Below are positions 3,001 to 18,520 of a stretch of 27,635 bases of DNA, in pieces; the first letter of the stretch is position 1, and the number at the start of each line of letters is the position of its first letter. The notes under the pieces were generated by a model, which saw only the letters and a program-made list of their open reading frames with translations, was not told the origin of the DNA and did not search any database. Position numbers and translations under genes: made by a program. Source of the stretch: a virus. The DNA lies in IMG/VR virus record IMGVR_UViG_3300037485_000747, positions 1 through 27,635 of that record; one strand, given 5' to 3'.

Positions 3001-5361
3001 TGATTGCCAACTATCACCTTGTCCCTCATTTGAAATGTGTCTTAGGAACGGCACATAATTAGTTCCGTCAATAAGATACTCTTTTAATTTTTTAGAAAGG
3101 AATGGATTATCCGTACCTAAACTTTTTAATACGTTTGTGGCCTCATCATCACCTTCAGCTTCATACACACTAAGGTCATAACCACTTATTCTATTCATTC
3201 TACTATATAATGAGTTAACAATAATTCTCTCATATATTTCGTAATAATATTTTGATTCTTCTTTGTTTTGGAAAACCTCGTTTGTAACCGGGAAATCAAT
3301 AGCGTTTAACGATATTCTTGATGGTTGTAAATCAACCACATTAAACTCCGCCCCACCAACATCATTTGGATTTAAACGTTCTGTATACCCTTTTATAAAT
3401 TGTTCAACAAACTCAACTTCAGGCCAAATCTCAGAATTGTAAGCCCTATAAGTGCTTGCAACATTTTGTGCACCAGGATAAATCAATTCAAATTTTTCTT
3501 GTTTGTCAGCACCTACGGTCTCTTGTATTACTTGAGGCCAAGGGTATATTGGTTCATTATTTTGTGTTGAGGTTTTAACATCCACACTTGGTGCGGTAGT
3601 TACATTACCAAATATTGCGGCTCTTCTATATTTATTTTCTCTTTGGTCCCAAGCTTTCTTATGAACCTCATCCAATAATCTAAGAAACGCCTCACCTTGA
3701 CAATAGAAAATTGCAAGTATGTTTCTAATAGATGGTGTAAACCCAAGACCATTTTTTGTATCATTAAACTTTGACGCTAAACTTTCAGTAATCAATTGTT
3801 CACAATTACTTCTTATTGTTGACGCTTGTTTCGCCATACCTGTTGTGACATCCATAAATGAATTAGTACCATCAAAATAAAATAATTTTGTTGTTATCGC
3901 TAATTGTATTTCATTTATTAAGTTAGTTTTAAAATTCTCAAACTTAAGTGGGTCAATTGTTCCTTGTGGTGCATTTTGTTGAGATAAATAAGTTTTCTCA
4001 AAATTAACATCTGATTGTGAGGATATTTTTCTACTTAAAGTACCTATTGTTATATTATTTGGAATTTCAGAAGGAACAACTGTTCCACCTACTGTGTAGG
4101 TCCCTTTGACCCCAAAGATTTTATTTTCACTTAAGGTTAAGTTATATTTAGTAATAATACCCTCTAATTCGGCAACAGCCGCTAATCTTTTTTCAAGATT
4201 TAGTTCCTTTTTAAAGTTATAAACATTTTCACCACTTGATTTTAACACAATAGGATTTTTAACATCCATATATGTATTGTACCAAGATGAGGTATAGTTA
4301 AACACTTTTTGTTGGTAAGCCAAAAGATCGTTTGTGTAGTTTGTCATTTCAGTTAACACACCCAAATTTTCTTTGGCAAACTGATTTAAAATATTATCAA
4401 TAAAATTCTGTAAACGATACTTTAATTGGTTAAGAGTTATTTCAGGAAAATTATCATCAATTAAACCTTTTGATTTATAATCGGAATATATTTCCTTCAT
4501 TTTTTGATATCCACGACTAACAACTTTTGGTGCTTGTACGGTGACTGATCCAGTTGAATTACCTTGTTCTGCGGTTCTTGTCCCTTCTAACACAGTATTA
4601 TTATACATGTGTGGTACTGCCATTAAAGCCCCAAAATTAACATAAGATAATAATGTATACTTATAACCATAAAACTTCAACTTAACTTGGAAGTTGTGTG
4701 TTGAAGGGTCAAAAGTTGATGTAAACGATTGTAACATTATTGGGAGTTTTACCGCCTTACCGTAATATCCTTTAATTGTTAATGTAAATTGTGGATATGG
4801 TAATTGGAAAAACGCAGCGTATGGTGAATTATTTCCACCTTCAAATAAAGCTCTACCTTTAACATCTTCTAAGTCAATATCAATAACCGGTAAGAAATCA
4901 AGACCGATACTTACTTTAATTGATTTCATGCCTAATAGTCCGTTATCAACAGCACCAGGTGTCCCGTTTGAGAGTAGGTTTTGAGTTATGTAATAGTCGT
5001 CCGATTTGTTTGGGTTCTTAACTGCGGTTTGGTTAGGTTGATTTACACCCTTACCTTGTAAGGTATCTTTACCTGTTAATTCATCGGCCCAATTATCATC
5101 TAAAAAAGTTCTGAAGCCAGGGTTTAAGAAATTGATCTTTCCTACCGAAATGGTTCTTTGCGAATCATTCATTGCGGTTCCAACCGCTAGTTTTGTTCGG
5201 GGTAAAACATTACATTCAAGGTTGGCGTAATAAACCAAGTCCTCTTGTTTAACTAATCTGTCTTTAACATTACCTTGTTCATCAACAAGTTTATTAGGGT
5301 CTATAAGTGTAATGTTGTCATAATCAAACTCTACTAATATGTTTTCACCGTTATCTGCCAT
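1..5361 (-). CDS. Giant baseplate or tail-fibre structural protein (partial, 3' end outside window)
   Basis: A frame open from an ATG at 5359-5361 to the left edge gives 1787 codons without a stop, so the C-terminus is missing. The first residues of the gene overlap the end of the gp53-like gene by 11 nt, so translation is probably coupled. The N-terminal ~270 residues carry a pattern I associate with baseplate proteins of marine and Bacteroidetes T4-like phages (an acidic DIDLEDVKGRALFEGG stretch, then SPYAAFFQLPYPQFTLTIKG and VPHMY). Residues ~1171-1351 hold three degenerate repeats at exactly 60-residue spacing, each with a G(T/L)Y core, of a kind common in phage fibre and baseplate proteins. 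The position at the end of the tail cluster, after gp53-like, supports a wedge or fibre-attachment role. I cannot assign a T4 gene name. The coding call is certain; the exact role is inferred. Confidence 0.85.
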   Translation of the reverse strand, partial: MADNGENILVEFDYDNITLIDPNKLVDEQGNVKDRLVKQEDLVYYANLECNVLPRTKLAVGTAMNDSQRTISVGKINFLNPGFRTFLDDNWADELTGKDTLQGKGVNQPNQTAVKNPNKSDDYYITQNLLSNGTPGAVDNGLLGMKSIKVSIGLDFLPVIDIDLEDVKGRALFEGGNNSPYAAFFQLPYPQFTLTIKGYYGKAVKLPIMLQSFTSTFDPSTHNFQVKLKFYGYKYTLLSYVNFGALMAVPHMYNNTVLEGTRTAEQGNSTGSVTVQAPKVVSRGYQKMKEIYSDYKSKGLIDDNFPEITLNQLKYRLQNFIDNILNQFAKENLGVLTEMTNYTNDLLAYQQKVFNYTSSWYNTYMDVKNPIVLKSSGENVYNFKKELNLEKRLAAVAELEGIITKYNLTLSENKIFGVKGTYTVGGTVVPSEIPNNITIGTLSRKISSQSDVNFEKTYLSQQNAPQGTIDPLKFENFKTNLINEIQLAITTKLFYFDGTNSFMDVTTGMAKQASTIRSNCEQLITESLASKFNDTKNGLGFTPSIRNILAIFYCQGEAFLRLLDEVHKKAWDQRENKYRRAAIFGNVTTAPSVDVKTSTQNNEPIYPWPQVIQETVGADKQEKFELIYPGAQNVASTYRAYNSEIWPEVEFVEQFIKGYTERLNPNDVGGAEFNVVDLQPSRISLNAIDFPVTNEVFQNKEESKYYYEIYERIIVNSLYSRMNRISGYDLSVYEAEGDDEATNVLKSLGTDNPFLSKKLKEYLIDGTNYVPFLRHISNEGQGDSWQSYIRGEFVTPYIKSEVQNPNVLYNSDIIQSLKSQPSVSLSNTKNLSNLEQYFANSSSSNKYDFTDTYPLTNIVWDKLNLAYGKYLNNAEEAFDTKKVLVYNNTHKTLTNFLDTDTNNDKRPFTYFNFENTIVTPTTDTLKDFYNTRKYEDQVVTEGNLEYSNYDKNWFTPTQTTSMLNTPYFINAIQQGVFNFRYKQADQSPYRTAAYLFLNSLPLGTLREKYKTSANGAVSDLDYILATLKKFGAVHKLPYAWILKYGSIWNRYKVYKKTGKDILDPVWTNFNYLENWDPVNSAATKSFNLLIDGTQRDIVLENTTTGSQPFTDINTGFYPQLTDDFNVFLQGLKLFSGQTQVTGKCEVTPISGDCTTFDVTGTCSLNGNVLTVTSISNDLIKPSLPIQIPSLSVTTSVLSQTSGVVGGIGTYVMPVAITATNVNFVIKSYANITNLTSTGITSGTIIGGPSTNGTLTLGVQISGTTNGNGLYYITPTSALTSSFTVLNPPLKVTAIDSNILAANSVLNGASLNGNVTILSQLSGINGGTGTYSISTGQTATTSNFVVANAFLQGIGSTQIQPLITSGKLKLINTTNSTIFETPGFDPNNGQRSMRVSPWSVIVRTTDGTGYYTLPSFGSNINQTKVEAFKNGTMKEELVNNDSMFNGSVRLFWNAPQYGWFDNSKVVKNDPGTYMKEIFNTEKLQQNFLISGDQTKYTDIQELFTTFDIETLDKFESEFLNFSRSIYDYVDTLPANKGSQSLQLLNQMANPNASTDLISDKANKNFQYLMRELFKVKTPTGTSPETILESVISSQNETFQQILSNFVNYNVVFKYGNPSMFDRRLFLTFSNKFLEDPIIYGPYENGTLPTQGGSLTLAQSQQQSPETWKALEYYVGYSTIPKLAYSNNGSYITDFFVDLNVQFNEKNVIDFAPLIKIYATQKLNNNNLNLTSFYGLMNAYFDQSDAYIFNVINIMMPQVRKQLPTVFIEQENASARADLEAGFTEQTRT
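1311..1850 (-). repeat. Three 60-codon beta-rich repeats in the giant structural protein
   Basis: Three consecutive segments on the minus strand share the pattern (I/L/V)SGxxxGxGxY followed by a Ser/Thr-rich strand. The segments contain VVGGIGTYVMPV, TNGNGLYYITPT and INGGTGTYSIST. The G(T/L)Y codons begin at 1740, 1560 and 1380, exactly 180 nt apart. Sequence identity between copies is low, so they are old duplications. Such SGxxGGxGTYxVS repeats are typical of beta-structured phage fibre or baseplate proteins. Confidence 0.75.
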
Positions 5362-5675: not shown

Positions 5676-8600
5676 TTAATTAAAAGTTACTTTCCCATTA
5701 AATGTATCATTATTATTCAAGTTTTTACTTGAGTATAAATCTTTTATTCTTTTTGTTCTTTGGTCAACATCATCTGTTGGTGGTGTAATGTAATTACATG
5801 TTTTCACCGTTGTGTCAGGTAATTTATATTTAACCGCATTTTCATACGCTTTAGTGGTTGCGTTGTTTTTAAGTTCATCAATTCTTTTAACTAAAGAAGT
5901 ATTAATACTTGTGTATTTAATTTTTAAGTCACCACATATTTTCTTTATTAAATCAATCAATCCAGGGTTTGCTTTAACTTCAGGACCACTAGTAAGCTCG
6001 TTTATAAAAGTTGTGTAATTATCTTCTTTTGTAAATAAAGGAGAGAATGAAATGTAAAATCTATTTTCTTCACAATTACTAAAAGAAGGTGTTGAATTTA
6101 TACTAAACGTACATCCATTACCATCTTCAATTGTTGAGGTGTTTTTTTGGTATAAATCTAATTTAACTAAAGTGTTGACATCGTTATTAAATGCTTTAAT
6201 TGTTTTTGCAACAGAATCCAAATAAACATTTTTAATACTTCCCGGTGTCGTTACAGGAGCAAAGAAAGTATCACCACTTAATTGATAAACAGTAGGTTCA
6301 TTTGTGTCTTGTAATACACCGTCAGTTTGATATACAACCATATCCATTTGTCTAAATATATAATCCAAACCTTGTTGTATAATTGTGAAATTTTGGGTTC
6401 CGTTTTGAACAACGTCTAAAATTGCGGACTGACGATTAGTTGCATTTGTTGTCAACTTTTCTTTTAACTCTCTATTTTCTTTATTAGTTAAATTAGCGTT
6501 ACTACTTTTTAAAAGTGATAATATTGGAGTGTCTCCACTATCAATATCTTTTTTAACTTTATCAATTAAGTCTTCAGTATATTGTTGGAAATTATTTGAC
6601 TTACCGTATATTTCAATTTCAAGTGGGTCAACATATTCTGAAAGTACTCCTTTAGAATATACTCTGTTTTTAGATGCTAATTGTAATACTCCGTAATTGT
6701 AATCAGTTGTAAGTTTGTTTAACATATCGGTATATGTCGTAAAATATTCAACCAACTTATCTTGTAATGATGTAAGGAGTGGGCCATAATCCATAGTTGT
6801 TGGATCAACAATAACTCCAATAGTGTTTTGACCTTTTTTAGGTTGTACACTATTAATAACTGCGGCCTCAGCGGTATTAACTATTGGTAATGCCCCATTT
6901 ATCTTTTCAACAACATATTGATCCAACTTACTTGTATCTTCAGTTGCTACCGCTCTTTCATCATATATTTCAGTATTTGCGTAGTAGTTGAATGAAAGTG
7001 CGTTTTGTAATTGTTGTACGGGTTCTTTAAGTCCCATACCTCCAATTATATTAAAGCCCATCTGTACATTACAAATCATTGGTTGTACACCAATACCTTC
7101 AGGGTTTAAATCTAAAGGTGAATTATCATAACTAAAACTCACACTTGTTGGTACAATCTTACAATGGTAAAAGTCACCAACCCTTAATACCAATATTGGC
7201 GGTGCCCCAAAAGATGTGTTTAACGCATCATTGTATTTTGGTCTTCCATCAGGCCCAATAACAGGTATTGTTTGACCTGGTCTCGTACATTGATTTAAGA
7301 ATGTAAGTCTCGCGTTTAGACCTTCAGGTGTCATTGAGTGGAAAGCCGGATTAAAGAATCTAATTTTATCTTTAATCGTATCATAAACCATTGGGTTAGT
7401 TTCCTTAATAACCTCAAAGTAATCACACTCACTGAAAAGGTTTCTTAATATTTTCTTAGAAATACCTTCCTTAATTTTTTGTTCAACCGTTAACTTAGCC
7501 TCAGGTTTAACGCTTTGTGTTGTAGCGGTTAATACATTAACCGGTGATGGTGGTGTTATTGTTGATTTTGGTGGTGTACTTGTCTCCACAGGTACCGGAT
7601 CATTTTTTGGTATGACAGCTTCAATATTCTTAATTGCAACCCTTCTACATCCCATCGCCGGAACACTATACCATTGGGCAGGATTATTAGATGAATTAGC
7701 ATTTACAACTTGACCAGTTGCGTTTAACGCTTTAGTGGTTACACGACAATTAAGATCAGCATTTAAAACCGTTCCATTGTTTGTGGTATTAACACTAATA
7801 TCGTTAACTGTGGATGCGGTTGTTAAAGGTGATTTTTGATTTTTTGGAATTACAATTTGCTCTCCGTTTGAGTCAAAGGTCATTTTAAATTTACCTTCTT
7901 CTTTATATTGTGATATTGTTTTTTTATCCGATAAAACTTGCGCTAAAAACCATTTCTCAACACTATTATTTCTTCTTTTAGATAATGCAACATTATATGT
8001 TTCAGTCTGTGGTGCAGATGCAGAACCAACTAAATCAATTGTAATAGATCCTTTAGATTTAATTAACACATCATCAATTTGTGTTAATAATTCTTTTTGT
8101 ATAACATTAAAGTTACCTTCAACTACGTCGGTAAAGAAATTAGGTATACTACTTGCAGAATATATTGTTCCCGCGTTATCAACTTTTACAGGTGCTTTTT
8201 GTTGGTAAACACTTTTTTGACCTATATATGTATTATAATAAACATTAAATGGTTGTGCCGCAGTTGTGTTAGGATTTGTTCCTGGTATGTCATTATCAAA
8301 ATAAAAACCTAAACCTTCAAATTTATTCCAATCCGGCGGAACAGGGTCTTCAGCCTTAACCGTACCGTTATTACCTACATTAGTAGTTCCATCTGTTCCT
8401 GAAGCATTTCCGGTCTGAGTACCTACCCCACCCTCAGCGTTTTGTGGTATTGATTCAAAAACTATTTGTTGTTCCTCTACTGTTAATCTTGGGTTATTTA
8501 ATATTTGTTGGTAAGTATATAAATCTTTAGCGGGTATTGTGTTAAACTTAGCCGCCAAATCATACAAGTCATATTTTGTACATCCCGCAAAGAACGAGTC

Positions 8601-10757
8601 AACAATACTTTGTACTCTCTCTTTACCAGCACCTTTCATTTGTTTTTCAATGATTGTGTTCATTACAGAAGGATTATCCACAATGATAGTCCAACTTAAT
8701 GATCCTGATCTTGTTGTATTTTTATACGTATAAATTGGTTCAGGTCTACCCAAGAAAGTTGTTGGGTTGAAGTCCGGTTTTGAGTCATCTGAGAATTTAA
8801 GGTTATAAGGTGGGAACCACATTATACGTCCACCGTTAGGTCCTTTCTCACAAACAGGCAATTCATCATAAGTGAATCCCGGTCTATCAGATGTTCTCCA
8901 TGCCAAGTTCTCAATAGAGAACATATATTTTTTAACCTTACCATCAACAATATTTGTTGATCCAGGATTCTTTAATGGTGCAATGTTTAAGTTATATGTG
9001 TTATCTAAGATTGAGTAGTCCGCTCTCCTACCTTCTTTAGTAATACCCGCACTTTTTTGTAGGTCGGCATATGTAAAGTAAGGAGTATCCTTTTGGAAGA
9101 TTCTACAGTACTCAATCCCCGCTTGTGTTCCATCCGCTTGATTTACATATGAAAGTACCTGAGAACCTTTAGTTATCTCTTTATATCCATCATTAAACAC
9201 TTTAGATACTTGGTTAATCGCAGTACCAACGTGTTTTAGTCTTGCCTGACCTTGTACTTGATCGGCAGAATTTATTAAAGCTTGAGTATTGGCAAGTATT
9301 GACCCTGGTTTGAATGGTATATTTGTTGATTGGTATTGGGTGTAGTCTGCAGTAATTTCATTAAACTCACCATCTAAACTACCAACACCTCCACCAACAG
9401 TTGCGTGGAATCCTGCGTTGTCTTTATATTTTGGTGAGGTCCAAACTAATTGTCCTGCGGTACCACCACCATCACTATACGACCTACCTTTTAAACCAAA
9501 CTTAATAGTTTCTTCATTTCCTTCATAAAGTGTTGCTAATTCTTGAGGACCATATACAATTGATTGTACTTGTTCACCAAAAGCGTTTACGGGAACTTGA
9601 TTTGCTGGTCCGTCAATTTGTGAAGGTTCTGCGTCTTTACTACCGACATAATAACCACCACTTTGTGATGAATCTTGGTTAAATAACCTATCAACCGCAG
9701 CAGATGCCCCCGCTATTAAACCACCAATAACACCTCTATTATATGAAGGTCTATAAATATTATAATCTAATGCCGAAAATAATGCGGATCTTTGTCCGTT
9801 ACCTGTATTCGCAACAAATATTTCTGAAGGATTTCTGTATTTGTTTAATATTGGTGCCAATAATCCACCTGTTAAAGCGTTTGGTACCCCTAAAGCCGCA
9901 ATTGTTTGTGCCGCATTTATAGGTGTATTTTCAATAAAATAATTTCCAGGTATAAATGAAACAGGGAAATAAGTTCCTGTTAATCTGTTGGCTAACGATA
10001 CTGCTGCCAATACAGGATTTTCGGGAACTGTAATTTTCCAATTTCTAATAAAGAATGGTTGTTGACCTGTTGCTAATAAACTCGCAGAAAAAGGATCTGA
10101 TATTGTATCTAAATTTATTACACCTACCGTTGATTGTGCAATCTCTTGTGCGATTCTTTCATTAAACGCAAATTTTAATTGGGTTGCTCCAATTTTTGCC
10201 AAGTAAGTATCGGACGATAATAATCCGTTAGACCCAATTGGGTCATCCTGAAATACAATACTGTATGTTGAATATGACGAATAATTGTAATATCCCGGAT
10301 CCCAATATGGTTGATAAATGTTTTGATTACCAATTATATCGGTAATAATAACCAAATCTTTATATCCACCTGAAGGTCCGAATTTGTTTGTAACATATGC
10401 GGATTCAATAAAGAATTCGTTAATAATATCTAATTGAGTGTCTTGTGGTGCGTAAGGACCTTGATTTGTTCCCTCTGGGTTGTTTGTTGATGCAACACTA
10501 TTTAACCCAATTGGACTACCAAACCCACCTTCAGGTCCGTATTCGTTTAATGGATATAAGTCGTTTGCAAATAAATTTGTTGACACATAGTTGTCAGGTG
10601 AGTTAACCACACTACTAACTGTAAGGTTAGTTTCATAATCAACAGGTGTTGGTCTTGAGGCATATGCTCCGGCAACGCTATACGGTGCTAGATTCTTAAC
10701 TAACAGTTGTTTTCTAAATACCGATGAATTACCAAATGATAATGAACTATCTGACAT
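5676..10757 (-). CDS. Large baseplate protein with an internal OmpA-like domain
   Basis: A 1693-residue virion protein directly downstream of the tape measure gene, where baseplate hub or wedge genes are expected. Residues ~880-970 look like an OmpA C-terminal domain (peptidoglycan-binding fold): a GSASAPQTETYN turn followed by LSKRRNNSVEKWFL matches the NxxLSxxRAxxV signature. The usual Asp of the GHTDxxG loop is replaced. A Pro/Thr-rich linker follows (~1045-1090). Residues ~1195-1265 (SFSYDNSPLDLNPEGIGVQP, then a Gly-rich hydrophobic stretch) resemble phage tail adaptor domains that contact the LysM/gp53-type partner. Residues ~640-720 hold an Arg/Trp-rich strand segment ending TRSGSLSWTIIVDNP. 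The ATG lies 11 nt downstream of a TATTTAT element. No signal peptide or membrane segment. Structural role is strongly supported by context; the exact T4 equivalent is unknown. Confidence 0.8.
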   Translation of the reverse strand: MSDSSLSFGNSSVFRKQLLVKNLAPYSVAGAYASRPTPVDYETNLTVSSVVNSPDNYVSTNLFANDLYPLNEYGPEGGFGSPIGLNSVASTNNPEGTNQGPYAPQDTQLDIINEFFIESAYVTNKFGPSGGYKDLVIITDIIGNQNIYQPYWDPGYYNYSSYSTYSIVFQDDPIGSNGLLSSDTYLAKIGATQLKFAFNERIAQEIAQSTVGVINLDTISDPFSASLLATGQQPFFIRNWKITVPENPVLAAVSLANRLTGTYFPVSFIPGNYFIENTPINAAQTIAALGVPNALTGGLLAPILNKYRNPSEIFVANTGNGQRSALFSALDYNIYRPSYNRGVIGGLIAGASAAVDRLFNQDSSQSGGYYVGSKDAEPSQIDGPANQVPVNAFGEQVQSIVYGPQELATLYEGNEETIKFGLKGRSYSDGGGTAGQLVWTSPKYKDNAGFHATVGGGVGSLDGEFNEITADYTQYQSTNIPFKPGSILANTQALINSADQVQGQARLKHVGTAINQVSKVFNDGYKEITKGSQVLSYVNQADGTQAGIEYCRIFQKDTPYFTYADLQKSAGITKEGRRADYSILDNTYNLNIAPLKNPGSTNIVDGKVKKYMFSIENLAWRTSDRPGFTYDELPVCEKGPNGGRIMWFPPYNLKFSDDSKPDFNPTTFLGRPEPIYTYKNTTRSGSLSWTIIVDNPSVMNTIIEKQMKGAGKERVQSIVDSFFAGCTKYDLYDLAAKFNTIPAKDLYTYQQILNNPRLTVEEQQIVFESIPQNAEGGVGTQTGNASGTDGTTNVGNNGTVKAEDPVPPDWNKFEGLGFYFDNDIPGTNPNTTAAQPFNVYYNTYIGQKSVYQQKAPVKVDNAGTIYSASSIPNFFTDVVEGNFNVIQKELLTQIDDVLIKSKGSITIDLVGSASAPQTETYNVALSKRRNNSVEKWFLAQVLSDKKTISQYKEEGKFKMTFDSNGEQIVIPKNQKSPLTTASTVNDISVNTTNNGTVLNADLNCRVTTKALNATGQVVNANSSNNPAQWYSVPAMGCRRVAIKNIEAVIPKNDPVPVETSTPPKSTITPPSPVNVLTATTQSVKPEAKLTVEQKIKEGISKKILRNLFSECDYFEVIKETNPMVYDTIKDKIRFFNPAFHSMTPEGLNARLTFLNQCTRPGQTIPVIGPDGRPKYNDALNTSFGAPPILVLRVGDFYHCKIVPTSVSFSYDNSPLDLNPEGIGVQPMICNVQMGFNIIGGMGLKEPVQQLQNALSFNYYANTEIYDERAVATEDTSKLDQYVVEKINGALPIVNTAEAAVINSVQPKKGQNTIGVIVDPTTMDYGPLLTSLQDKLVEYFTTYTDMLNKLTTDYNYGVLQLASKNRVYSKGVLSEYVDPLEIEIYGKSNNFQQYTEDLIDKVKKDIDSGDTPILSLLKSSNANLTNKENRELKEKLTTNATNRQSAILDVVQNGTQNFTIIQQGLDYIFRQMDMVVYQTDGVLQDTNEPTVYQLSGDTFFAPVTTPGSIKNVYLDSVAKTIKAFNNDVNTLVKLDLYQKNTSTIEDGNGCTFSINSTPSFSNCEENRFYISFSPLFTKEDNYTTFINELTSGPEVKANPGLIDLIKKICGDLKIKYTSINTSLVKRIDELKNNATTKAYENAVKYKLPDTTVKTCNYITPPTDDVDQRTKRIKDLYSSKNLNNNDTFNGKVTFN

Positions 10758-10780: not shown

Positions 10781-12634
10781 TTATACATTTTTTGCACCTG
10801 TAGTTGCGGTTGGTGCGGTACCTCCACCAAGTACATTAGACATTGCATTTGCCGATGTCGGGTCTTGTAATCCTTGTAATACAGCGTTTGTTATTTCTTC
10901 TTTATTCATATTTTTTGTATTTGCATCACCCTCAACTTTAACATTAGCATTTATTGTAAGTTCAGTTTTTGTGGTAGGTTTTTCCATATATGCCTTTGCT
11001 AAAATATCTTTCGTATCTTTTAATACCCCATTCGCAATTGACTCTAACATTGCAACACCTTTAGCTGAAAGGTCTGAAGCATTTGTGACTAATTTTTCTA
11101 AAGAAGCTGCTTGTCCAACAGCATCACCCTTAAATGTTGCAACCGCTAAATCCTCAACCGGTTGGGTTAAACCACCAACTGTTTTTCTCACTCCTTTAGT
11201 GGTAACCTCATCAGACGTTCTTTGAGCTACACTTTTTTCAACACCTTTAAGACCATAAAATAACTTACTTAATGCTGGAGTAGTTGCTTTACCGTATTCG
11301 GCCGCCTTTAATGTACCATCCATTAAACCTTTAATTTGTTTTAATTCATCAAGTTGATCAATCGCCAATTGTTCAACACTTTTACCGGATTCTTCTTGAG
11401 ACATTTTTAAACTTTCAATATCTTTTCCTGTAAGTTGACCCACTTGTTTAAGTTCAACTTCACCTGTTTGTTCATTCTTAATATTGATCATAGCCTTACC
11501 ATCTTTAAGTTGAGCCATTGACGCAATCATTTCTTTTGTTTCTTTATCTTTTGCTAATTCAGGGAATTCAATTTGAGACATTTTCTTATCAAAGTCTGCC
11601 GCATTAATAGACATTTTTGCAAGTTCAGCAGCTCCTGATGCACCCATCATACCCATTGCCTCGGCAACTTCTCGTAATCTACGTTTTGATCCTGGCATAA
11701 TTTCCATTTTACCAGTTGCCTCATTAAACTTGGTAAACTCTTTTGAAATATTTACCATTTCTTTTTGTAATTGTTCAGGGTCGTTTTGTCCCAAGTCCAT
11801 CGCCTTTAATGGATCCAACAACGCACTTGATGTAACACCCAATCTTTGTAACGCCGCAGACATATCAATTGCCTTTTCAGGGTCCATAAGTTTTTCGGAT
11901 AAATCAAAGACAGTATCCATACTTATGCCTAACCTTGATGCTTGAGCCGCCATTGACGTTAAACCTTTAATACCACCTTCAAAATTGTATAGATTCATTT
12001 TGTTTAGGTTGCTAACAACCCCTTTTGAAACTGCATCTACGGATACTCCAACACTTTTAGCGTAATTAGCAACATCTTTCATTTCCTCACCAACATCATA
12101 AATTGAAACTCCAACTTCTCTAAAACTAGATGTTAATGTTCCAACATCTCTACCTGTAAGTTCTGCTGCGGCAGACATTTCAATAATTGCCTCATTTCCA
12201 ATGCTAGCCGCAGTACCTAACTCTTTCGCTATCGCAATAAAGTTTTTAGAAGCAGTACCTTGTTCAAGACCCATTTTTGTTAATTCGGGGGTTGTTTCAG
12301 CAATAGAAAATCTAAATTCATCAAGTCTCTCTTTTGAAACTCCAAAACTATGTTGTATTTCAGTACCTAAAGTATCTAACTCACCAAACGCTTTTCCACT
12401 ACCCTCACTTATAAAATCAAACGAACCCTTTAGTGAATTACCCGCATTATCGGCTATTTTTCCAAGATTGTTAAGTCTTAAGTCCCAACTTAAAGTATCA
12501 TTTATTGCACTTTGAATCGCATCTTTGTTACTTTTATCAATTGTTCCTTTTAAACCATTAACTTGATCAGTTAAACTTTTGGTTTGTTTTTTGTATTCCT
12601 CAATTTGTTTTAGTAACTCATCTTCCTTACCCAT
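10781..12634 (-). CDS. Tail tape measure protein
   Basis: A 617-residue protein lying between the tail assembly chaperone and the baseplate genes, the position of the tape measure in contractile-tailed phages. It sets tail length and is threaded inside the tube. Residues 1-40 are Lys/Glu-rich and predicted coiled coil (heptad-like DELLKQIEEYKKQTKSLTDQ), followed by long Ala/Gly/Met-rich helices with no cysteine-rich or enzymatic motif. The C-terminal part (ELTINANVKVEGDANTKN) resembles the C-termini of other tape measure proteins. The length is close to T4 gp29 (590 aa), suggesting a tail of similar length, around 100 nm. The start ATG is 16 nt after a TATTTAT element and 25 nt after the stop of the frameshift extension. 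Confidence 0.8.
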   Translation of the reverse strand: MGKEDELLKQIEEYKKQTKSLTDQVNGLKGTIDKSNKDAIQSAINDTLSWDLRLNNLGKIADNAGNSLKGSFDFISEGSGKAFGELDTLGTEIQHSFGVSKERLDEFRFSIAETTPELTKMGLEQGTASKNFIAIAKELGTAASIGNEAIIEMSAAAELTGRDVGTLTSSFREVGVSIYDVGEEMKDVANYAKSVGVSVDAVSKGVVSNLNKMNLYNFEGGIKGLTSMAAQASRLGISMDTVFDLSEKLMDPEKAIDMSAALQRLGVTSSALLDPLKAMDLGQNDPEQLQKEMVNISKEFTKFNEATGKMEIMPGSKRRLREVAEAMGMMGASGAAELAKMSINAADFDKKMSQIEFPELAKDKETKEMIASMAQLKDGKAMINIKNEQTGEVELKQVGQLTGKDIESLKMSQEESGKSVEQLAIDQLDELKQIKGLMDGTLKAAEYGKATTPALSKLFYGLKGVEKSVAQRTSDEVTTKGVRKTVGGLTQPVEDLAVATFKGDAVGQAASLEKLVTNASDLSAKGVAMLESIANGVLKDTKDILAKAYMEKPTTKTELTINANVKVEGDANTKNMNKEEITNAVLQGLQDPTSANAMSNVLGGGTAPTATTGAKNV

Positions 12635-12659: not shown

Positions 12660-12845
12660 TTATTTTTGGTTTTGAGTTTCCTCCACAAATTTTCCAATCA
12701 AATATTTACGAACATAAGTAGGCATGGACATGAACTCAGAGTATTGGGTTCTGAATATTTTTGAGAAATAATAAAATTCGTCTAATATTGTTGCCTTATA
12801 TTGATAAGAAAGGCCGAAAAAACTCAACCCCAAAACCAATCTCAA
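12660..12845 (-). CDS. Frameshift extension of the gp26-like tail assembly protein
   Basis: An open frame in +1 relation to the upstream gp26-like gene, overlapping its end by 50 nt. The only in-frame start before the overlap ends is a TTG (12843-12845); the first ATG lies far inside and would leave about 23 residues. The protein-like part reads GLSYQYKATILDEFYYFSKI, then an aromatic helix and MSMPTYVRKYLIGKFVEET, a pattern similar to the short proteins that follow gp26 in other T4-like phages. It is therefore most likely reached by a +1 shift at TTTTTTC (12822-12816). The shifted product would be 250 shared residues plus 51, about 301 residues. Independent initiation at TTG is the alternative. 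The position between tube and tape measure is where frameshifted tail chaperones (lambda gpG/gpGT, P2 gpE/E') are encoded. Confidence 0.6.
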   Translation of the reverse strand: MRLVLGLSFFGLSYQYKATILDEFYYFSKIFRTQYSEFMSMPTYVRKYLIGKFVEETQNQK

Positions 12846-13566
12846 CGACTGCTTTTTCTCCTGACGGGGTAATTACTTCTTTTGATAGATCTAGTCTTGG
12901 TTCATTATCATAAACAAATCGTCTGATGTATTTTGAATCTGCAATTGGCATCTGTTCAACAAAAGTTGCAATTTTTAATCTATCATCATCACCATCAATA
13001 GATACAATGTGTTTTAATAATTTGGTTGTAACGGTAGGAGCGGTTCTTTCAGAAGGATAAGATTTAATTATTTTTTCAACCTCAAGTCTATCCATCATAT
13101 TTAAAAGTTTTAATTTAACTTTTCTTTTACTTACAGGAAGTGTCGTTTCAAATGTACCGTCGTCTAAAGGGTTTTCATTTGTTTTTTTGTAATTTAACTC
13201 ATCCAATAGAATTGATGTTGTGAATATCTCATCTGTTTTTGGATCCGTAACTTTAATACTATATTCAGGACCAAATGATGTATTTCTTAAGAAAATTAAG
13301 ATAGCTTCAATATCACCATCTAAAAGTTCTTCAGGTCTTAAATCTTTTTCAAATATCTTATTTCTTAATAATGGTAGAATAATACCTTCATTAATATTTT
13401 TTCTTGAATCAATGTCAGATAAAATATTTTCATCTGCCGCTGTTAAATAACCAACTTTTATTGATTTCTTTTTAGATTTGTAAAATACACCTTGAGAAGG
13501 TAATGATACAACATCGTGAGGTAAATTAAATTCTGCTTGTCCAGCAGCGTATGCGTCTTGTTCCAT
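12796..13566 (-). CDS. gp26-like baseplate/tail assembly protein, candidate tail assembly chaperone
   Basis: A 256-residue protein resembling the T4 gp26 family: an N-terminal LPSQGVFY (residues 22-29), a YLTAADENIL helix start (40-49), an acidic LLDGDIEAIL-FLRNTSFG segment (81-99), and a C-terminal G-V-FF-P motif (residues 246-252). The zinc-like Cys pair seen in some relatives is absent. In T4 gp26 is annotated as a hub subunit, but here the gene lies between tube and tape measure and ends in a likely frameshift, which argues for a tail assembly chaperone role (holding the tape measure before tube polymerisation). The conserved FF is encoded by the slippery TTT TTT. The gene lies 84 nt after the tube stop, across a terminator hairpin. 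ATG start, no Shine-Dalgarno visible. Confidence 0.7.
   Translation of the reverse strand: MEQDAYAAGQAEFNLPHDVVSLPSQGVFYKSKKKSIKVGYLTAADENILSDIDSRKNINEGIILPLLRNKIFEKDLRPEELLDGDIEAILIFLRNTSFGPEYSIKVTDPKTDEIFTTSILLDELNYKKTNENPLDDGTFETTLPVSKRKVKLKLLNMMDRLEVEKIIKSYPSERTAPTVTTKLLKHIVSIDGDDDRLKIATFVEQMPIADSKYIRRFVYDNEPRLDLSKEVITPSGEKAVVEIGFGVEFFRPFLSI
12814..12825 (-). other. Candidate +1 ribosomal frameshift site
   Basis: In the zero frame the coding strand reads GAG TTT TTT CGG. A Phe-tRNA on TTT can slip forward onto TTC, after which GGC CTT TCT continues the downstream open frame. The zero frame stops at 12796-12798, seven codons downstream of the slip point. CGG directly after the run is a plausible slow codon in this AT-rich genome. 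A -2 slip would reach the same frame. Confidence 0.5.
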
Positions 13567-13650: not shown

Positions 13651-14139
13651 TTAGTATACCAATATACATCTATCCATTTGGATACCACAAGTAATACCTG
13701 CAATAGCATCCGAACTATAAGATAAAGAACCCCCATCATAACCTGTAAGGAAAGCCCCTTCAATAATCCATTTCTCAACAACAACTCCTGTTGGGTCTAG
13801 CATCTCAAGGTCAACATTTTTCTTGTAACCCGCAGCATAACCCATACGACCTGTTACTGACTCAGCACATAAACGAATCCATTCCATAACAGCTTGTGAA
13901 GCCGAAGGACCAATTGGGTCACGAAACTTAACTGAAAGTGGTTCCCATTTAAATCTACCCGCAACAAACGTTGAAGTATTTAAGAATTGTATTTCGGTTG
14001 CGCCGATGGTTAATTTAGGTCGAGCGAATGTCTCAACATACCACTCGTTAATACCAAGTGATGAAGGAAATCTTAAGATCCATCGGTTCTCCCTTTTTGG
14101 TTCGTAAGGTATCGGCATTTTCATTAACAAATCAGCCAT
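13651..14139 (-). CDS. Tail tube protein, T4 gp19 family
   Basis: A 162-residue protein, nearly the length of T4 gp19 (163 aa), which polymerises into the inner tail tube through which DNA passes. The family features are clear: an N-terminal RENRWILRFPSSLG strand, a central KFRDPIGPSASQAVMEWIR segment and a C-terminal ITCGIQMDRCILVY strand. The protein is encoded between the HAD-fold gene and the gp26-like chaperone, downstream of the sheath. The ATG is preceded by a long A-rich leader with a TATTTAT element 38 nt upstream, and the gene is followed by its own strong terminator, as expected for one of the most abundant virion proteins. No signal of truncation or transfer. Confidence 0.92.
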   Translation of the reverse strand: MADLLMKMPIPYEPKRENRWILRFPSSLGINEWYVETFARPKLTIGATEIQFLNTSTFVAGRFKWEPLSVKFRDPIGPSASQAVMEWIRLCAESVTGRMGYAAGYKKNVDLEMLDPTGVVVEKWIIEGAFLTGYDGGSLSYSSDAIAGITCGIQMDRCILVY

Positions 14140-14262: not shown

Positions 14263-15090
14263 TTAATATTCTTCTTTACCTTGTTTTGATGTAGCATATA
14301 TCTTTAAATCATCTTTATCTGGAAAATGCTTTCTCATTGTTTTTACATTTCTTAGGTCATCATCTGAAAAACCAATATATGGTGTAAAATAATTACTAAT
14401 TTTGTTCTTCATAAATGCCTTCTCTTGTAATTGTTGTGAAAGGTGTCTAACATACATCATAAATTCTTGCATAGCCTTAACTTTTAATTCTTCGGGATTC
14501 GCGGCAGAACCTTCACCAAAAGTTACAGGATGATATTTACCCATATCCAAATAAGCCCTTATTAATTCATCATCAGATAAATCTTCTTCATCCGCTAATT
14601 CTCTATATTTTCTAAGATTTTTAACCAGTTCTTTTGAAGACAATCCGTGTTTGTTTTGTTTAATCAAATTATAAACCGCTTGTTTGAGGATTGAAGGCGT
14701 GTGTCCCCTTGCTGTGATGATTGAGAAAATAGACCCGTTATTAACCGCCTCAACAAAGTCACTCCATGCAGGTCCCGTTTCAGCCGTCATTGCGTCTTTT
14801 AAGAACGCTTTATCACCGGGGATTTTAAAGTCTCTGAATGCTTCGTCATCAAAACCTACTATAGTATGTCCTTCATATGTGAAAGGTTCTTTACCGATTT
14901 CAGTTCTATGTTCGGCAAAATCTTCGGTAGACATACCAACAGTTTTTCCTTTATCGTCTTTCAAATAAATCTTGGTTGGCATGTACATTAAATTGTCATC
15001 CCAGTCAAAAGCATAATACTTCATCGTAGGTTTCATCTGATCGTGAATAATCTCACTCAGTATTTCTCGTACTACTTTTTTATAATTCAT
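14263..15090 (-). CDS. HAD-superfamily phosphatase-like protein
   Basis: A 275-residue protein with haloacid dehalogenase motifs: motif I YAFDWDDN (nucleophile Asp29, Asp31), motif II IITARGH (Thr126), a candidate Lys for motif III (Lys228 or Lys230) and motif IV GFSDDD (Asp243-Asp245). The third position of the DxDx(T/V) motif is Asn. HAD enzymes of this kind hydrolyse small phosphoesters or act on nucleic acid ends; the substrate here is unknown. The region ~55-110 is a cap-like insertion. The N-terminal peptide, residues 1-13, ends in ILSE and resembles a T4-style (I/L)xE prohead protease site, so packaging into the capsid is possible. It sits alone between the sheath terminator and the tube gene with its own TATTTAT element only 4 nt before the ATG. 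Confidence 0.8.
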   Translation of the reverse strand: MNYKKVVREILSEIIHDQMKPTMKYYAFDWDDNLMYMPTKIYLKDDKGKTVGMSTEDFAEHRTEIGKEPFTYEGHTIVGFDDEAFRDFKIPGDKAFLKDAMTAETGPAWSDFVEAVNNGSIFSIITARGHTPSILKQAVYNLIKQNKHGLSSKELVKNLRKYRELADEEDLSDDELIRAYLDMGKYHPVTFGEGSAANPEELKVKAMQEFMMYVRHLSQQLQEKAFMKNKISNYFTPYIGFSDDDLRNVKTMRKHFPDKDDLKIYATSKQGKEEY

Positions 15091-15160: not shown

Positions 15161-18100
15161 TTATATATTCTCAAACGATGCTCCCGTAGGAGTGATGTAG
15201 AATGTGATGTCAATGAACTCAAGTGACCTTGTTGGTTTGATGTAAATCTTACCAGTCATTTGATTTCTATCCAAATCTTCAGGGTCATTAGAAACTGTTA
15301 CTCTAAAGTCATAAAGACCTCTGTCTCTTCTGATCGCATCTAAGATTGGATTCACCGCATTTAAGAAGTCTTGTCTAACCTGTGCGTCGTTCTGTTCAAA
15401 CAACAACCTTACAGATACAGCAGATATCAATTTACGAGCTTGTAATAACAATCTTCTTACGTTAATTCTGTCAAGAGCAGATTCTCTAACTTGTAGAGTT
15501 TTGTTACCCCAAATTACAGTACCAATATCAGAGAAGGTTGCAATTGGGTTAATTCTACCGTTGTAAAGAATGTCTCTATCTTCTTGTGTCAACTTCTTAC
15601 GTGCTTTAATACAGTTAACAATACCACGAGTGTAACCTGCCGCCGCGAACCAAGGGAATGCGATGTTATCAGTTAACGCCAAGTTTCTTGTTACTTGTGC
15701 CGTTGGTGGAATATAAACTTGAGTATTGTTTACACTATCTCTTGTCAATACCCAAGGGTAGTAAGTACAAGTGTAGTTAGAGTCAATACCTGTGTTGTAT
15801 AAGTTATCTACCGCTTCAGTTGGGTAAATAAGACCATCATTTCCTGTAGTTGTTGGTAAGAACATATCGTAGTCAGGGGTTGTTGTGATATACAAAGAGT
15901 CAGCTCTGTTGAATGTAATCATATTAACCGCATCTTCAACCAAGTTACTGTTATTCACATAATCAATACCTGGTGTTACGAATACATTGATGTTTGTTGC
16001 CTCAGGGTTAGCGAATGTTTGTTGTCCTAACAAGTATGCGTAGTAGTCGGTGTTAGCGAATGCCATTGTTCCGTCACCAATTGCGATTTGTTTAAACGCT
16101 CCCCAACCTGTTGCGGAAGGATAAAGTGTTGATGGACATGCTCCTCTTAAGAATCCTCTTCTACCAAGTGAGAACTCATCTGTGTTTGTTCTACTTTCTC
16201 TATAGATATCCCATCCGTCAAATCCTCCTTGTACTAATAAGGTAAACTTACGAGCGAAAAGTCTAAAGTATGGGTTAGCTGGTAATTCAGGGTCTGTTGT
16301 AAATGGTGCATTTCCACAGATAAATCTTGGGTCACCACTTGTTGAGAACTCAGGTCCTATTGTGATACCACTTGCGTTAATATCCATGTGGAAACCTGCT
16401 GATCTGTAGTTAAATGGAACACTATCAATATCACAAGAGTTGATTGGATTTCTCTTACCTACATATTCGTAGTAAGCTGGATCCCATCCGTAACTATTAG
16501 ATATACCTAAGTATGTTCTTCTAACATTGTCACCATTACTTAAAATAGCATCGTTGTTTCCTGATGATAAACCAAATGGTGGATCATAAACTACCTCACC
16601 TGCGTAATCGTATTTCGCTTTGATAATTGGGAATGCTGAGTTAGCACCTGCGTAATTTCTAAAGTTAAATCCGTTGAACCCACAAGGCATTGCATCTATC
16701 GGTGCGTCTTCGTTGATTTCAACCATAATGTATTTAGACATTAATGTGTACTCACCATCTAATGTACCAATCTTAACACCGATAAAGTTGTTTTGTCCCG
16801 GATCCATTGTACAGTTTGTATATTTCTCAAGAACTACTGGGTTAGCATCTGTGTCAAAGTAATCTCTTACTAATACGTCAAATGTACCGTTGTTAAATGT
16901 TTGGTTGATGATTGATAATTTAACCAATGTGTTTGCTCCATCACCATCAGATATTGTGTAGAATCTAAATAGGTCAAATACTTTATTACCTCTTAATTCA
17001 GATACAACCCAAGGCGAGTTAGGAGTTTGATATCTATCTAAGTACCATCCGATTGAATTGATGTCACCACTTTGTGCTGAATCTAAAGCAATAAGTTCAG
17101 AACTTAAACCTCTAATGTACCCTTTATTCCAAGAATAGTTTAACCAAGATTGGAATGTTTCTTCGTTGAATAATGGAACACTAATTCTTGGTTTTTGGAA
17201 GTTAGTTACTCCAAATACTTTTTGAATGTACTCTGAATCATTTTGACTCAATGAAGTTTCAAATGTGAAGTTTGTACCATACTTGTCAGTTACATTAACC
17301 GCAAACTGTAAGAATGGATTTTTAGTTACACCTGAGTACTGACCTGTCATATTTAAAGACACATTTGTAAGACCTGTTACTGAGTAAGCTGGATCTTCAG
17401 CTCCCGCTGCGTAAGTTGAAATACCTCTTGATCTTAATGTTGAAACAACAACATTGTCATAGTTCGTATAAGATGTTCCTGTGTAGTAGTAAATCTTACC
17501 AACAATACTTCCTTGATAACAATCTATATTCACCGGTGTTGGTGTAGGTGTTGGGGAGGTAAATGGTGAAGGTGTAATACAAGGGTTAACAAATGAAGGT
17601 GTCGGTGTCGGAGACAATGATGCCTGTGGTGTAGGTGTTGGGTTAGGGTAGTAAGCCGTAAGACCTGACACATACGTAAAGAATGAGAATCCTGAATAAG
17701 CCGTTCCGCCAGTGTGAGCGAATTGAGAATAATACCAAGAATCATTCAATGGAGATGTTAATGATGTATCGTCAAATGAAACTGAAGGAACTTGGTAAAC
17801 GTTTGTTCCAGCTGTCCATCCCGCACCTTCTAATGTGTTATAATCGTCAGTTGCGATTGATCCAAAATATGAAATCAATTCATCTTCAGCCATATATGGT
17901 TGTGAATCTGTGATTACATTAAAGATTAAATCTTTGATTTGAGCATCTATTGATGAAACCCCACCATTAAACTCTTCATATTGAGTATAAAGTTGAGATT
18001 CAATAGTGTCAGGGAATGTTGTTGTATATCCGATTGTTGATGTACTATTTGTACAACCTGTAAAGTCAACAACGAATGTTAATTCATTTGGAGTAACACA

Positions 18101-18520
18101 AGTTGTCACACAAGTACTGTAATCTGTAACAGAACTTAAACACCATACGTCAATTGTTGATGGATCAACATTTGCAATTGTTGTGATTGACCAAGATGGT
18201 CCCGCATCATATCCTGATAAACCTAGGATTCTTGTTACGAATAATTGATTTGATTGTTGTAGATACGCTTGTGCTATGTAAGCCGCTTCGTATTTCGGAA
18301 TTTGTGTATTCACAAACTTTTCTGGGGATACTCCACCAAATACAGTTTGGAATTCAGTAAAATTCGTAATGAAAATAGGTTCAAATGCCGGACCTATTAA
18401 TGTCTCTCCGACTATCCCTAAGGTAGTAACACCTACACTTTGTGCTACGAAACTTAAGTCAACTTCGGATGTGTACACTCCAGGAGAAACAAAAACCTTA
18501 CTATTTGTGCTAGTTGCCAT
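15161..18520 (-). CDS. Tail sheath protein with large internal insertion
   Basis: A 1119-residue contractile sheath subunit (T4 gp18 is 659 residues). The N-terminus (VFVSPGVYTSEVDLSF then a Gly-rich IVGE-GPAF segment) and the C-terminal ~280 residues (from about residue 840: VFVTPGIDYVN, then a conserved LQVRESALDRINVRRLLLQA helix and a terminal SLEFIDITFYITP strand) are typical of phage sheaths and form the core that contracts around the tube. Between them are several hundred extra residues, including a Cys-containing segment (~130-160) and a Pro/Thr-rich linker (~287-332) with repeated PTPTP blocks that separates surface domains. The insertion is probably displayed on the tail exterior. 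The ATG is 33 nt after a TATTTAT element and the gene ends with a strong terminator. Confidence 0.93.
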   Translation of the reverse strand: MATSTNSKVFVSPGVYTSEVDLSFVAQSVGVTTLGIVGETLIGPAFEPIFITNFTEFQTVFGGVSPEKFVNTQIPKYEAAYIAQAYLQQSNQLFVTRILGLSGYDAGPSWSITTIANVDPSTIDVWCLSSVTDYSTCVTTCVTPNELTFVVDFTGCTNSTSTIGYTTTFPDTIESQLYTQYEEFNGGVSSIDAQIKDLIFNVITDSQPYMAEDELISYFGSIATDDYNTLEGAGWTAGTNVYQVPSVSFDDTSLTSPLNDSWYYSQFAHTGGTAYSGFSFFTYVSGLTAYYPNPTPTPQASLSPTPTPSFVNPCITPSPFTSPTPTPTPVNIDCYQGSIVGKIYYYTGTSYTNYDNVVVSTLRSRGISTYAAGAEDPAYSVTGLTNVSLNMTGQYSGVTKNPFLQFAVNVTDKYGTNFTFETSLSQNDSEYIQKVFGVTNFQKPRISVPLFNEETFQSWLNYSWNKGYIRGLSSELIALDSAQSGDINSIGWYLDRYQTPNSPWVVSELRGNKVFDLFRFYTISDGDGANTLVKLSIINQTFNNGTFDVLVRDYFDTDANPVVLEKYTNCTMDPGQNNFIGVKIGTLDGEYTLMSKYIMVEINEDAPIDAMPCGFNGFNFRNYAGANSAFPIIKAKYDYAGEVVYDPPFGLSSGNNDAILSNGDNVRRTYLGISNSYGWDPAYYEYVGKRNPINSCDIDSVPFNYRSAGFHMDINASGITIGPEFSTSGDPRFICGNAPFTTDPELPANPYFRLFARKFTLLVQGGFDGWDIYRESRTNTDEFSLGRRGFLRGACPSTLYPSATGWGAFKQIAIGDGTMAFANTDYYAYLLGQQTFANPEATNINVFVTPGIDYVNNSNLVEDAVNMITFNRADSLYITTTPDYDMFLPTTTGNDGLIYPTEAVDNLYNTGIDSNYTCTYYPWVLTRDSVNNTQVYIPPTAQVTRNLALTDNIAFPWFAAAGYTRGIVNCIKARKKLTQEDRDILYNGRINPIATFSDIGTVIWGNKTLQVRESALDRINVRRLLLQARKLISAVSVRLLFEQNDAQVRQDFLNAVNPILDAIRRDRGLYDFRVTVSNDPEDLDRNQMTGKIYIKPTRSLEFIDITFYITPTGASFENI

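Follow-up and report, generated by a model that had tools for sequence, protein, structure and literature searches.

The gp26-like gene of the analysed DNA, a viral stretch of 27,635 nucleotides (IMG/VR record IMGVR_UViG_3300037485_000747, hereafter the window), very probably makes two tail assembly chaperones, the longer of which would arise through a +1 ribosomal frameshift. As judged from comparison among relatives, the ORF in the +1 frame (ORF2) is translated as protein and linked to gp26. T4 is cited as an exception to chaperone frameshifting, and a 2022 paper in Virology reportedly holds, according to its title, that the mechanism of T4-like phages is not frameshifting; yet a +1 layout is conserved among T4 gp26 relatives from phages that infect Flavobacterium, Rhodothermus, Bacillus, Streptomyces, Streptococcus and others. 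The layout is unannotated in the database records examined. It suggests an origin for the T4 gene pair gp26/gp51 and corrects the annotation, as the gap that follows the "baseplate hub" genes is coding.

Genomic context of the gp26-like gene

The gp26-like protein belongs to the T4_baseplate family (PF12322), which it matches above the curated cut-off in the profile search (33.8 bits versus 24.5, E 3.7e-8), and it also matches the baseplate hub family phrog_150 (E 5.1e-13). Its gene, the single gp26-type copy in the 27.6-kb record, which is less than a whole genome, lies between the tail tube gene and a tape-measure-like gene assigned by position (Table 1). Family profile searches gave no significant match for the 617-aa product of the latter. 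The corresponding gene is annotated as tape measure in Listeria phage LIS04 and in Flavobacterium phage immuto, where a 36-codon ORF precedes it.

Table 1. Features of the gp26-like locus, in coordinates of the window.
Feature	Position	Strand	Remarks
Upstream neighbour, gp19-like tail tube gene	13651..14139	-	phrog_4542, E 3.7e-22
gp26-like frame 0, putative short chaperone form (TAC-N-like)	12796..13566	-	256 aa, ATG start
Upstream RNA hairpin, proposed +1 stimulator	12832..12856	-	3' end 12 nt before P-site codon
GGGG between hairpin and shift site	12828..12831	-	invariant
Candidate shift site UUU UUU CGG	12814..12822	-	E-site UUU 12822-12820, P-site UUU 12819-12817, A-site CGG 12816-12814
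+1-frame extension, putative C-terminal domain of long form	12663..12815	-	51 aa after shift
Frame-0 stop TAA closing short form	12796..12798	-	same distance in 81/81 window-clade loci (best 80 of 237 relatives plus the window)
Stop TAA of +1 frame	12662-12660	-	
Downstream neighbour, tape-measure-like gene	10781..12634	-	617 aa; by position

Several other features of the window were recorded. Between the tube gene and gp26, a terminator-like inverted repeat (AAGACCGT / ACGGTCTT) with a T run after it was recognized by eye at 13626-13591 (minus strand), its loop being longer than the scan of the window allowed; a terminator is annotated at the equivalent position in the record of Bacillus phage SP-15. 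The 1119-aa sheath protein (15161-18520, minus strand) has its sheath-family matches confined to the last ~280 residues, and a 275-aa gene between sheath and tube (14263-15090, minus strand) is without significant family match. Two giant ORFs of 1787 and 1693 aa (1-5361 and 5676-10757, minus strand) have no PHROG match at E 0.01. An ATTTAT motif, possibly a promoter element, occurs on the sense strand at most 60 nt from the start upstream of 7 of the 15 window ORFs; a scan of the window for sigma-70-type promoters found no excess, and no tRNA genes were found in it.

Conservation of the overlapping +1 frame

Already open ahead of the shift site, the +1 frame continues to its own TAA and, past the shift, specifies the 51 residues GLSYQYKATILDEFYYFSKIFRTQYSEFMSMPTYVRKYLIGKFVEETQNQK. 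A single forward slip at TTT_C would produce a 301-aa fusion, versus the 256-aa frame-0 protein. An earlier note on this DNA had described a gp26-like frame ending at 12796 and an overlapping +1 frame adding 51 residues, which both the reading frames and the relatives confirm. Its further statement that the +1 frame has no suitable ATG holds in that no ATG precedes the conserved region, but TTG codons, which it did not mention, are present there, and ORF prediction begins the +1 ORF at TTG 12845 (a 61-aa version). Pfam and PHROGs searches with the 51-aa ORF2 and with the 61-aa version returned nothing useful.

A gp26 query of viral contigs recovered eight relatives, and the overlap is found in the window and in all eight. 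The window clade was collected with the 51-aa extension as query, the best 80 of 237 relatives plus the window making 81 loci; in every one of these, with 33 distinct junctions, the extension lies in +1 relative to a frame-0 gp26. For a second clade, queried with the gp26 of a Microcystis phage, 80 of at least 600 matches were kept. Among the matches listed, the +1 frame is open in 78 of the 78 loci that reach past the gp26 stop; L134 and L163 were dropped from the counts, as the contig ends before or at the shift site. In L138 and L167 the +2 frame is longer, yet +1 is also open (67 and 64 aa), and in L114 and L175 the contig end falls inside ORF2 (28 and 32 aa). Duplicate sequences were merged before counting, and L077, L005 and L009 were left out of the fused-sequence set because treating each in-frame TTTC as one step broke the frame. 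Homologues with a single uninterrupted frame, or with a separate second ORF starting at ATG, were not seen in these two large clades.

The overlap is also present in cultured phages, namely Microcystis Mel-JY01, Streptococcus GXN1, Listeria LIS04, Bacillus SP-15, Streptomyces pSt2308, LuckySocke and GiJojo, Pseudomonas QdP_Psa3, Flavobacterium immuto and Rhodothermus RM378, and in an Erysipelotrichaceae MAG (locus L193). A viral-contig search with SP-15 gp26 recovered SP-15 alone, and a genome-contig search (query A2) gave one confirmed locus among 61 matched stretches. The earlier note had expected a +1 case to be uncommon in a T4-like cluster; outside T4, the gp26-like loci examined usually have it. 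In two related huge-phage lineages, RAS14 (L182, a Stenotrophomonas phage) and LR756511 (L017), ORF2 lies in the -1 frame instead, with U_UUU_UUU (RAS14, around 4743-4998) and U_UUU_UUC (LR756511, at the end of the gp26-like ORF) seen by eye at the FF motif, which suggests that the direction of the putative shift flips between lineages. An ATG overlaps the gp26 stop in LR756511, so separate translation is possible there.

The extension behaves as a protein-coding sequence. At least 40 aa are open in +1 past the stop at 89 of 89 gp26 ends versus 6 of 268 other long-ORF ends of the same loci, loci short of sequence past the stop being left out. Among 39 distinct sequences, the variability of the window-clade +1 ORF past the frame-0 stop is highest at third codon positions (0.149, 0.096 and 0.411). 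A profile built from 63 second-clade extensions (among the matches listed) recovers all 28 window-clade ORF2s (E 6e-6 to 1.4e-3); the window's own extension (E 6e-5) scores better than each of 2538 decoys, the best of which reached 0.1. The same profile matches the ORF2s of immuto (1e-22), LR756508 (7e-20), LIS04 (4e-6), SP-15 (7e-4) and GXN1 (9e-4). Those of RAS14 (0.15) and LuckySocke (0.83) fail to beat the best decoy, and those of RM378, pSt2308, QdP_Psa3 and L193 are not recovered by it; the assignment of these six therefore rests on position, not similarity.

Shift site and codon usage

The putative shift site is preceded by GAG (12825-12823), and the +1 frame resumes with GGC (12815-12813, minus strand). 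The sequence UUUUUUCGGCCUUUC at the site is invariant among 41 distinct segments from relatives. The window-clade frame-0 codons read TTT GGG GTK GAR TTT TTT CGG CCT TTC, of which TTT, GGG, TTT, TTT, CGG, CCT and TTC are kept in 41 of the 41 distinct segments. The site thus has both the UUU_C P-site and the CGN A-site of the UUU_CGN class of +1 sites, as UUU_CGG in all 41. The GGG codon accounts for 10% of background Gly codons versus 41 of 41 at the GGGG element. A Shine-Dalgarno role for this element is conceivable, although its distance from the P-site is 8 nt, compared with 3 nt in RF2.

Among the 8952 codons of the 15 window ORFs, CGG occurs once, precisely as the A-site codon of the shift site, and in 40 distinct relatives it is found at the site in every case, with just one further CGG among the 50,332 codons of their long ORFs. 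CGC is equally rare. The presence of CGG is in part a consequence of dual coding, since a Gly that follows Phe in +1 requires this codon if both frames are translated. The near absence of CGG elsewhere makes the CGG of the site a plausible pause point, and codon usage suggests that the tRNA reading it is scarce.

The corresponding second-clade site is TTT TTT TGG (among the matches listed), with TTTTTT in 62 and CTTTTT in 3 of 65 sequences and with TGG in 63 and TAC in 2 at the A-site; UGG is not obviously starved. Other lineages have UUU_CGU (GXN1 and MAG locus L193), UUU_CAC (SP-15), UUU_CGC (pSt2308 and GiJojo), UUU_CAG (LuckySocke), UUU_CUA (LR756508), UUU_CCC (QdP_Psa3), UUU_UGG (RM378) and UUU_CUU or CUU_UGG (immuto), and UUU UUU AGU of LIS04 fits less simply. 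As far as these sequences tell, what the lineages have in common is that a UUU_Y P-site lies at the "FF" motif. Comparative evidence thus supports the +1 direction and the TTT-to-TTC slip at GAG TTT TTT CGG that had been put forward from the window itself. The conservation proposed as a check on them is borne out for both frames, which the relatives keep, and not for the exact TTTTTTC, which varies across lineages while the UUU_Y P-site is kept.

Frameshifting versus other explanations

ORF2 overlaps gp26 in another frame and without a start of its own, an arrangement kept across relatives, with TTG codons remaining in the +1 frame within the window's clade. Translational coupling would give a separate 51-residue protein through reinitiation after gp26 termination, or through an internal start, with TTG 12833 or 12845 in place of ATG. 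In its favour, all 81 window-clade loci (best 80 of 237 plus the window) and all 33 junctions have a +1-frame TTG located 18 nt ahead of GGC, and start rules may differ in the host. We nevertheless consider it distinctly unlikely, as the TTG is a by-product of the invariant frame-0 TTT GGG and the +1 residues upstream of the site vary non-conservatively (W/L, N/S), whereas V-E is retained in frame 0. Among the second-clade matches listed, moreover, ATG, GTG and TTG are all missing from the stretch that leads from the preceding +1 stop to the site in 24 of the 65 distinct ORF2s, and two of the clade's ORF2s (L123 and L151) have none anywhere; RM378 and LuckySocke likewise have no start before the site. 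Reinitiation at standard starts is excluded for these start-less second-clade ORF2s. Since TTG is kept in the window clade, the second clade excludes reinitiation there by analogy only, and the frameshift conclusion for the window clade rests on homology and the site itself.

The homopolymer at the site, T6 in the window and T7 in most of the second clade (among the matches listed), might also favour transcriptional slippage, by which the frame of the mRNA rather than that of the ribosome would be altered. This is very improbable, as immuto (TTTCTTTGG), pSt2308, GXN1 and QdP_Psa3 have no more than T3 there with the +1 layout unchanged, and T6C is short for polymerase slippage. A -2 ribosomal shift, known from phage Mu, would have the same frame arithmetic and give the fusion one extra Phe, and re-pairing would be permitted on T6 or T7. 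Such re-pairing fails at the T3 sites of pSt2308, GXN1 and QdP_Psa3, whereas UUU_C re-pairs forward, and the rare A-site CGG favours +1 on a principle given in the available text of PMC3498833, so a -2 shift also has very little probability. To read the overlap as an indel from sequencing or assembly in an error-prone homopolymer run, or ORF2 as a decayed remnant, is scarcely credible, because the overlap is kept in 81 + 78 loci (among the matches listed) and in separately sequenced isolates, which excludes the sequencing error in the T run that the earlier note had allowed for, and because ORF2 evolution shows third-position bias.

Upstream RNA hairpin

Comparison of relatives shows a predicted, covarying hairpin upstream of the proposed +1 frameshift site in the window's clade. 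RNAalifold predicted a 10-pair hairpin from 27 window-clade sequences, with pairing in 97.4% of cells versus at most 57% for slid versions, and 16 cells were altered on both sides versus 4.7 +/- 1.8 in shuffles (0/500). Segments of 31 nt over the hairpin had a mean z of -4.09 in 35 distinct sequences, and in a sliding scan of 14 of these the other positions were mostly near 0, the exceptions being those that cover the slip site and a single one at +60. Against synonymous-codon permutation, 24 of 24 distinct segments had the higher stability, with z between -3.14 and -1.04 (mean -2.12). The sequences in these statistics are related, hence the numbers are not independent tests. The window's own copy has one mismatch.

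The hairpin is absent from most of the second clade (66 sequences among the matches listed, mean z -0.04) and is therefore not general. In a second-clade subgroup of 13 sequences (L099-L111), a separate stable hairpin lies close to the shift site, within roughly 30 nt upstream of the P-site (mean z -2.94), and no upstream hairpin was found in a sample of 20 other second-clade sequences. Downstream RNA structure gave weak z-scores (mean -1.26 and -1.23). A second predicted stem that encloses the slip site, pairing GGGG with CCUU, is not claimed; being almost invariant it says little, although 31-nt segments that span it show stability as well (mean z -2.5 and -2.8). According to the available text of PMC6321510, upstream hairpins raise +1 shifting in E. 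coli extract or a 70S system, at another site.

Relationship to T4 gp26 and gp51

T4 gp26 and gp51 are both members of PF12322 (E 8.8e-64 and 3.9e-52). On phrog_150, gp26 covers positions 14-235 and gp51 positions 13-280 of 282, and gp51, with about 50 extra C-terminal residues, extends some 45 profile positions beyond gp26. As gp51 reaches further along the profile, T4 would encode the short and the long form in two genes; T4 gp26 has no +1 extension (4 codons). The locus is read as one gene making both of the tail assembly chaperone forms that T4 splits over two. The similarity of ORF2 to the gp51 C-terminus is marginal and suggestive only: the profile-profile score of 16.0 lies above all 60 column-shuffled decoys (maximum 15.0), yet with a probability of 2.6%, and the best hmmsearch E of the ORF2 profile versus gp51 was 3.6.

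In the AlphaFold model of the fusion, the N-domain is confident, the linker (246-275) weak and the C-terminus helical. The top PDB match is the HK97 tail assembly chaperone 2ob9, at a Foldseek E of 0.28, which is not significant; VIA-align gave Z 5.1 for it (rmsd 3.9, 91 aligned). Three chains reached Z >= 5 in VIA-align, 3fgx (6.0), 3klu (5.4) and 2ob9 (5.1), and we take 3klu (YqbN) to be a chaperone relative. Position, the two-form design and the weak fold match together favour the chaperone reading, so the suggestion that gp26 be recast as a chaperone-type protein gains support on comparative evidence, and gp26 may function as a chaperone.

Proposed mechanism and evolution

We infer the ratio of short to long product: most ribosomes would stay in frame 0 and stop at 12796, releasing the 256-aa gp26-like form. 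In the others, the P-site tRNA may slip from TTT to TTC at UUU_CGG, in the +1 direction, and the hairpin, refolding behind the ribosome, would probably help to push it forward. If the two forms act as in lambda G/GT, the short one may coat the tape measure protein and the extra domain of the long form may recruit tube subunits.

A broader joint reading, to which we give an even chance, is that the UUU_Y +1 shift is ancestral for the chaperones of T4-related myoviruses. The T4 lineage would have replaced the shift by the gp26/gp51 gene pair, and in some huge phages its direction may have changed to -1 with the FF motif kept. In the window clade the shift would have become a hungry-codon switch, with CGG reserved almost exclusively for the shift site, and there the upstream hairpin may drive the shift, substituting for a Shine-Dalgarno element.

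Comparison with known systems

The locus resembles lambda G/GT in that overlapping ORFs adjoin the gene for the tail tube and precede that for the tape measure, and in that a minority fusion would add a C-terminal domain. It differs in that lambda shifts -1 at a slippery heptamer, whereas here the predicted shift is +1 at UUU_Y in a gp26-family protein, which sets the site apart from the canonical -1 slippery heptamers of tail assembly chaperones. G-T frameshifting is widely conserved "except T4" in the accessible text of a review (PMC5009743). The T4 proteins share the family PF12322 and the short and long forms with the window, but T4 has two separate genes and its gp26 is without the +1 extension.

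The available part of the phage Adele paper describes chaperone fusions of Vandenendeviridae and Andersonviridae through a conserved -1 frameshift at GTTTTT (PMC12846349). These are likewise myovirus chaperone fusions with a conserved poly-T frameshift motif, though their shift is -1 and the one proposed here +1. A +1 shift is called very likely for the tail assembly chaperone of the archaeal myovirus HSTV-2 in the text seen of PMC5009743 and is annotated for the chaperone of mycobacteriophage Karhdo according to that of PMC10793310; both resemble the window in that a +1 shift yields a tail assembly chaperone, a likeness of description, not of sites or proteins. A +1 shift in a gp26-type chaperone was not found reported in the literature searched, where subscription papers were mostly outside reach.

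In influenza A PA-X, UUU_CGU is a demonstrated +1 site at which UUU re-pairs to UUC (PMC3498833, available text). The window shares with it the UUU_C P-site, the CGN A-site and the +1 direction, although PA-X belongs to a eukaryotic RNA virus, has a UCC E-site and is an unrelated gene. Chaperone frameshifting and +1 cases were thus already known, whereas the +1 direction in this setting, the UUU_Y slip and the hairpin are new here, and the window offers a natural bacterial UUU_CGN candidate +1 site that combines a nearly private rare codon with an upstream hairpin.
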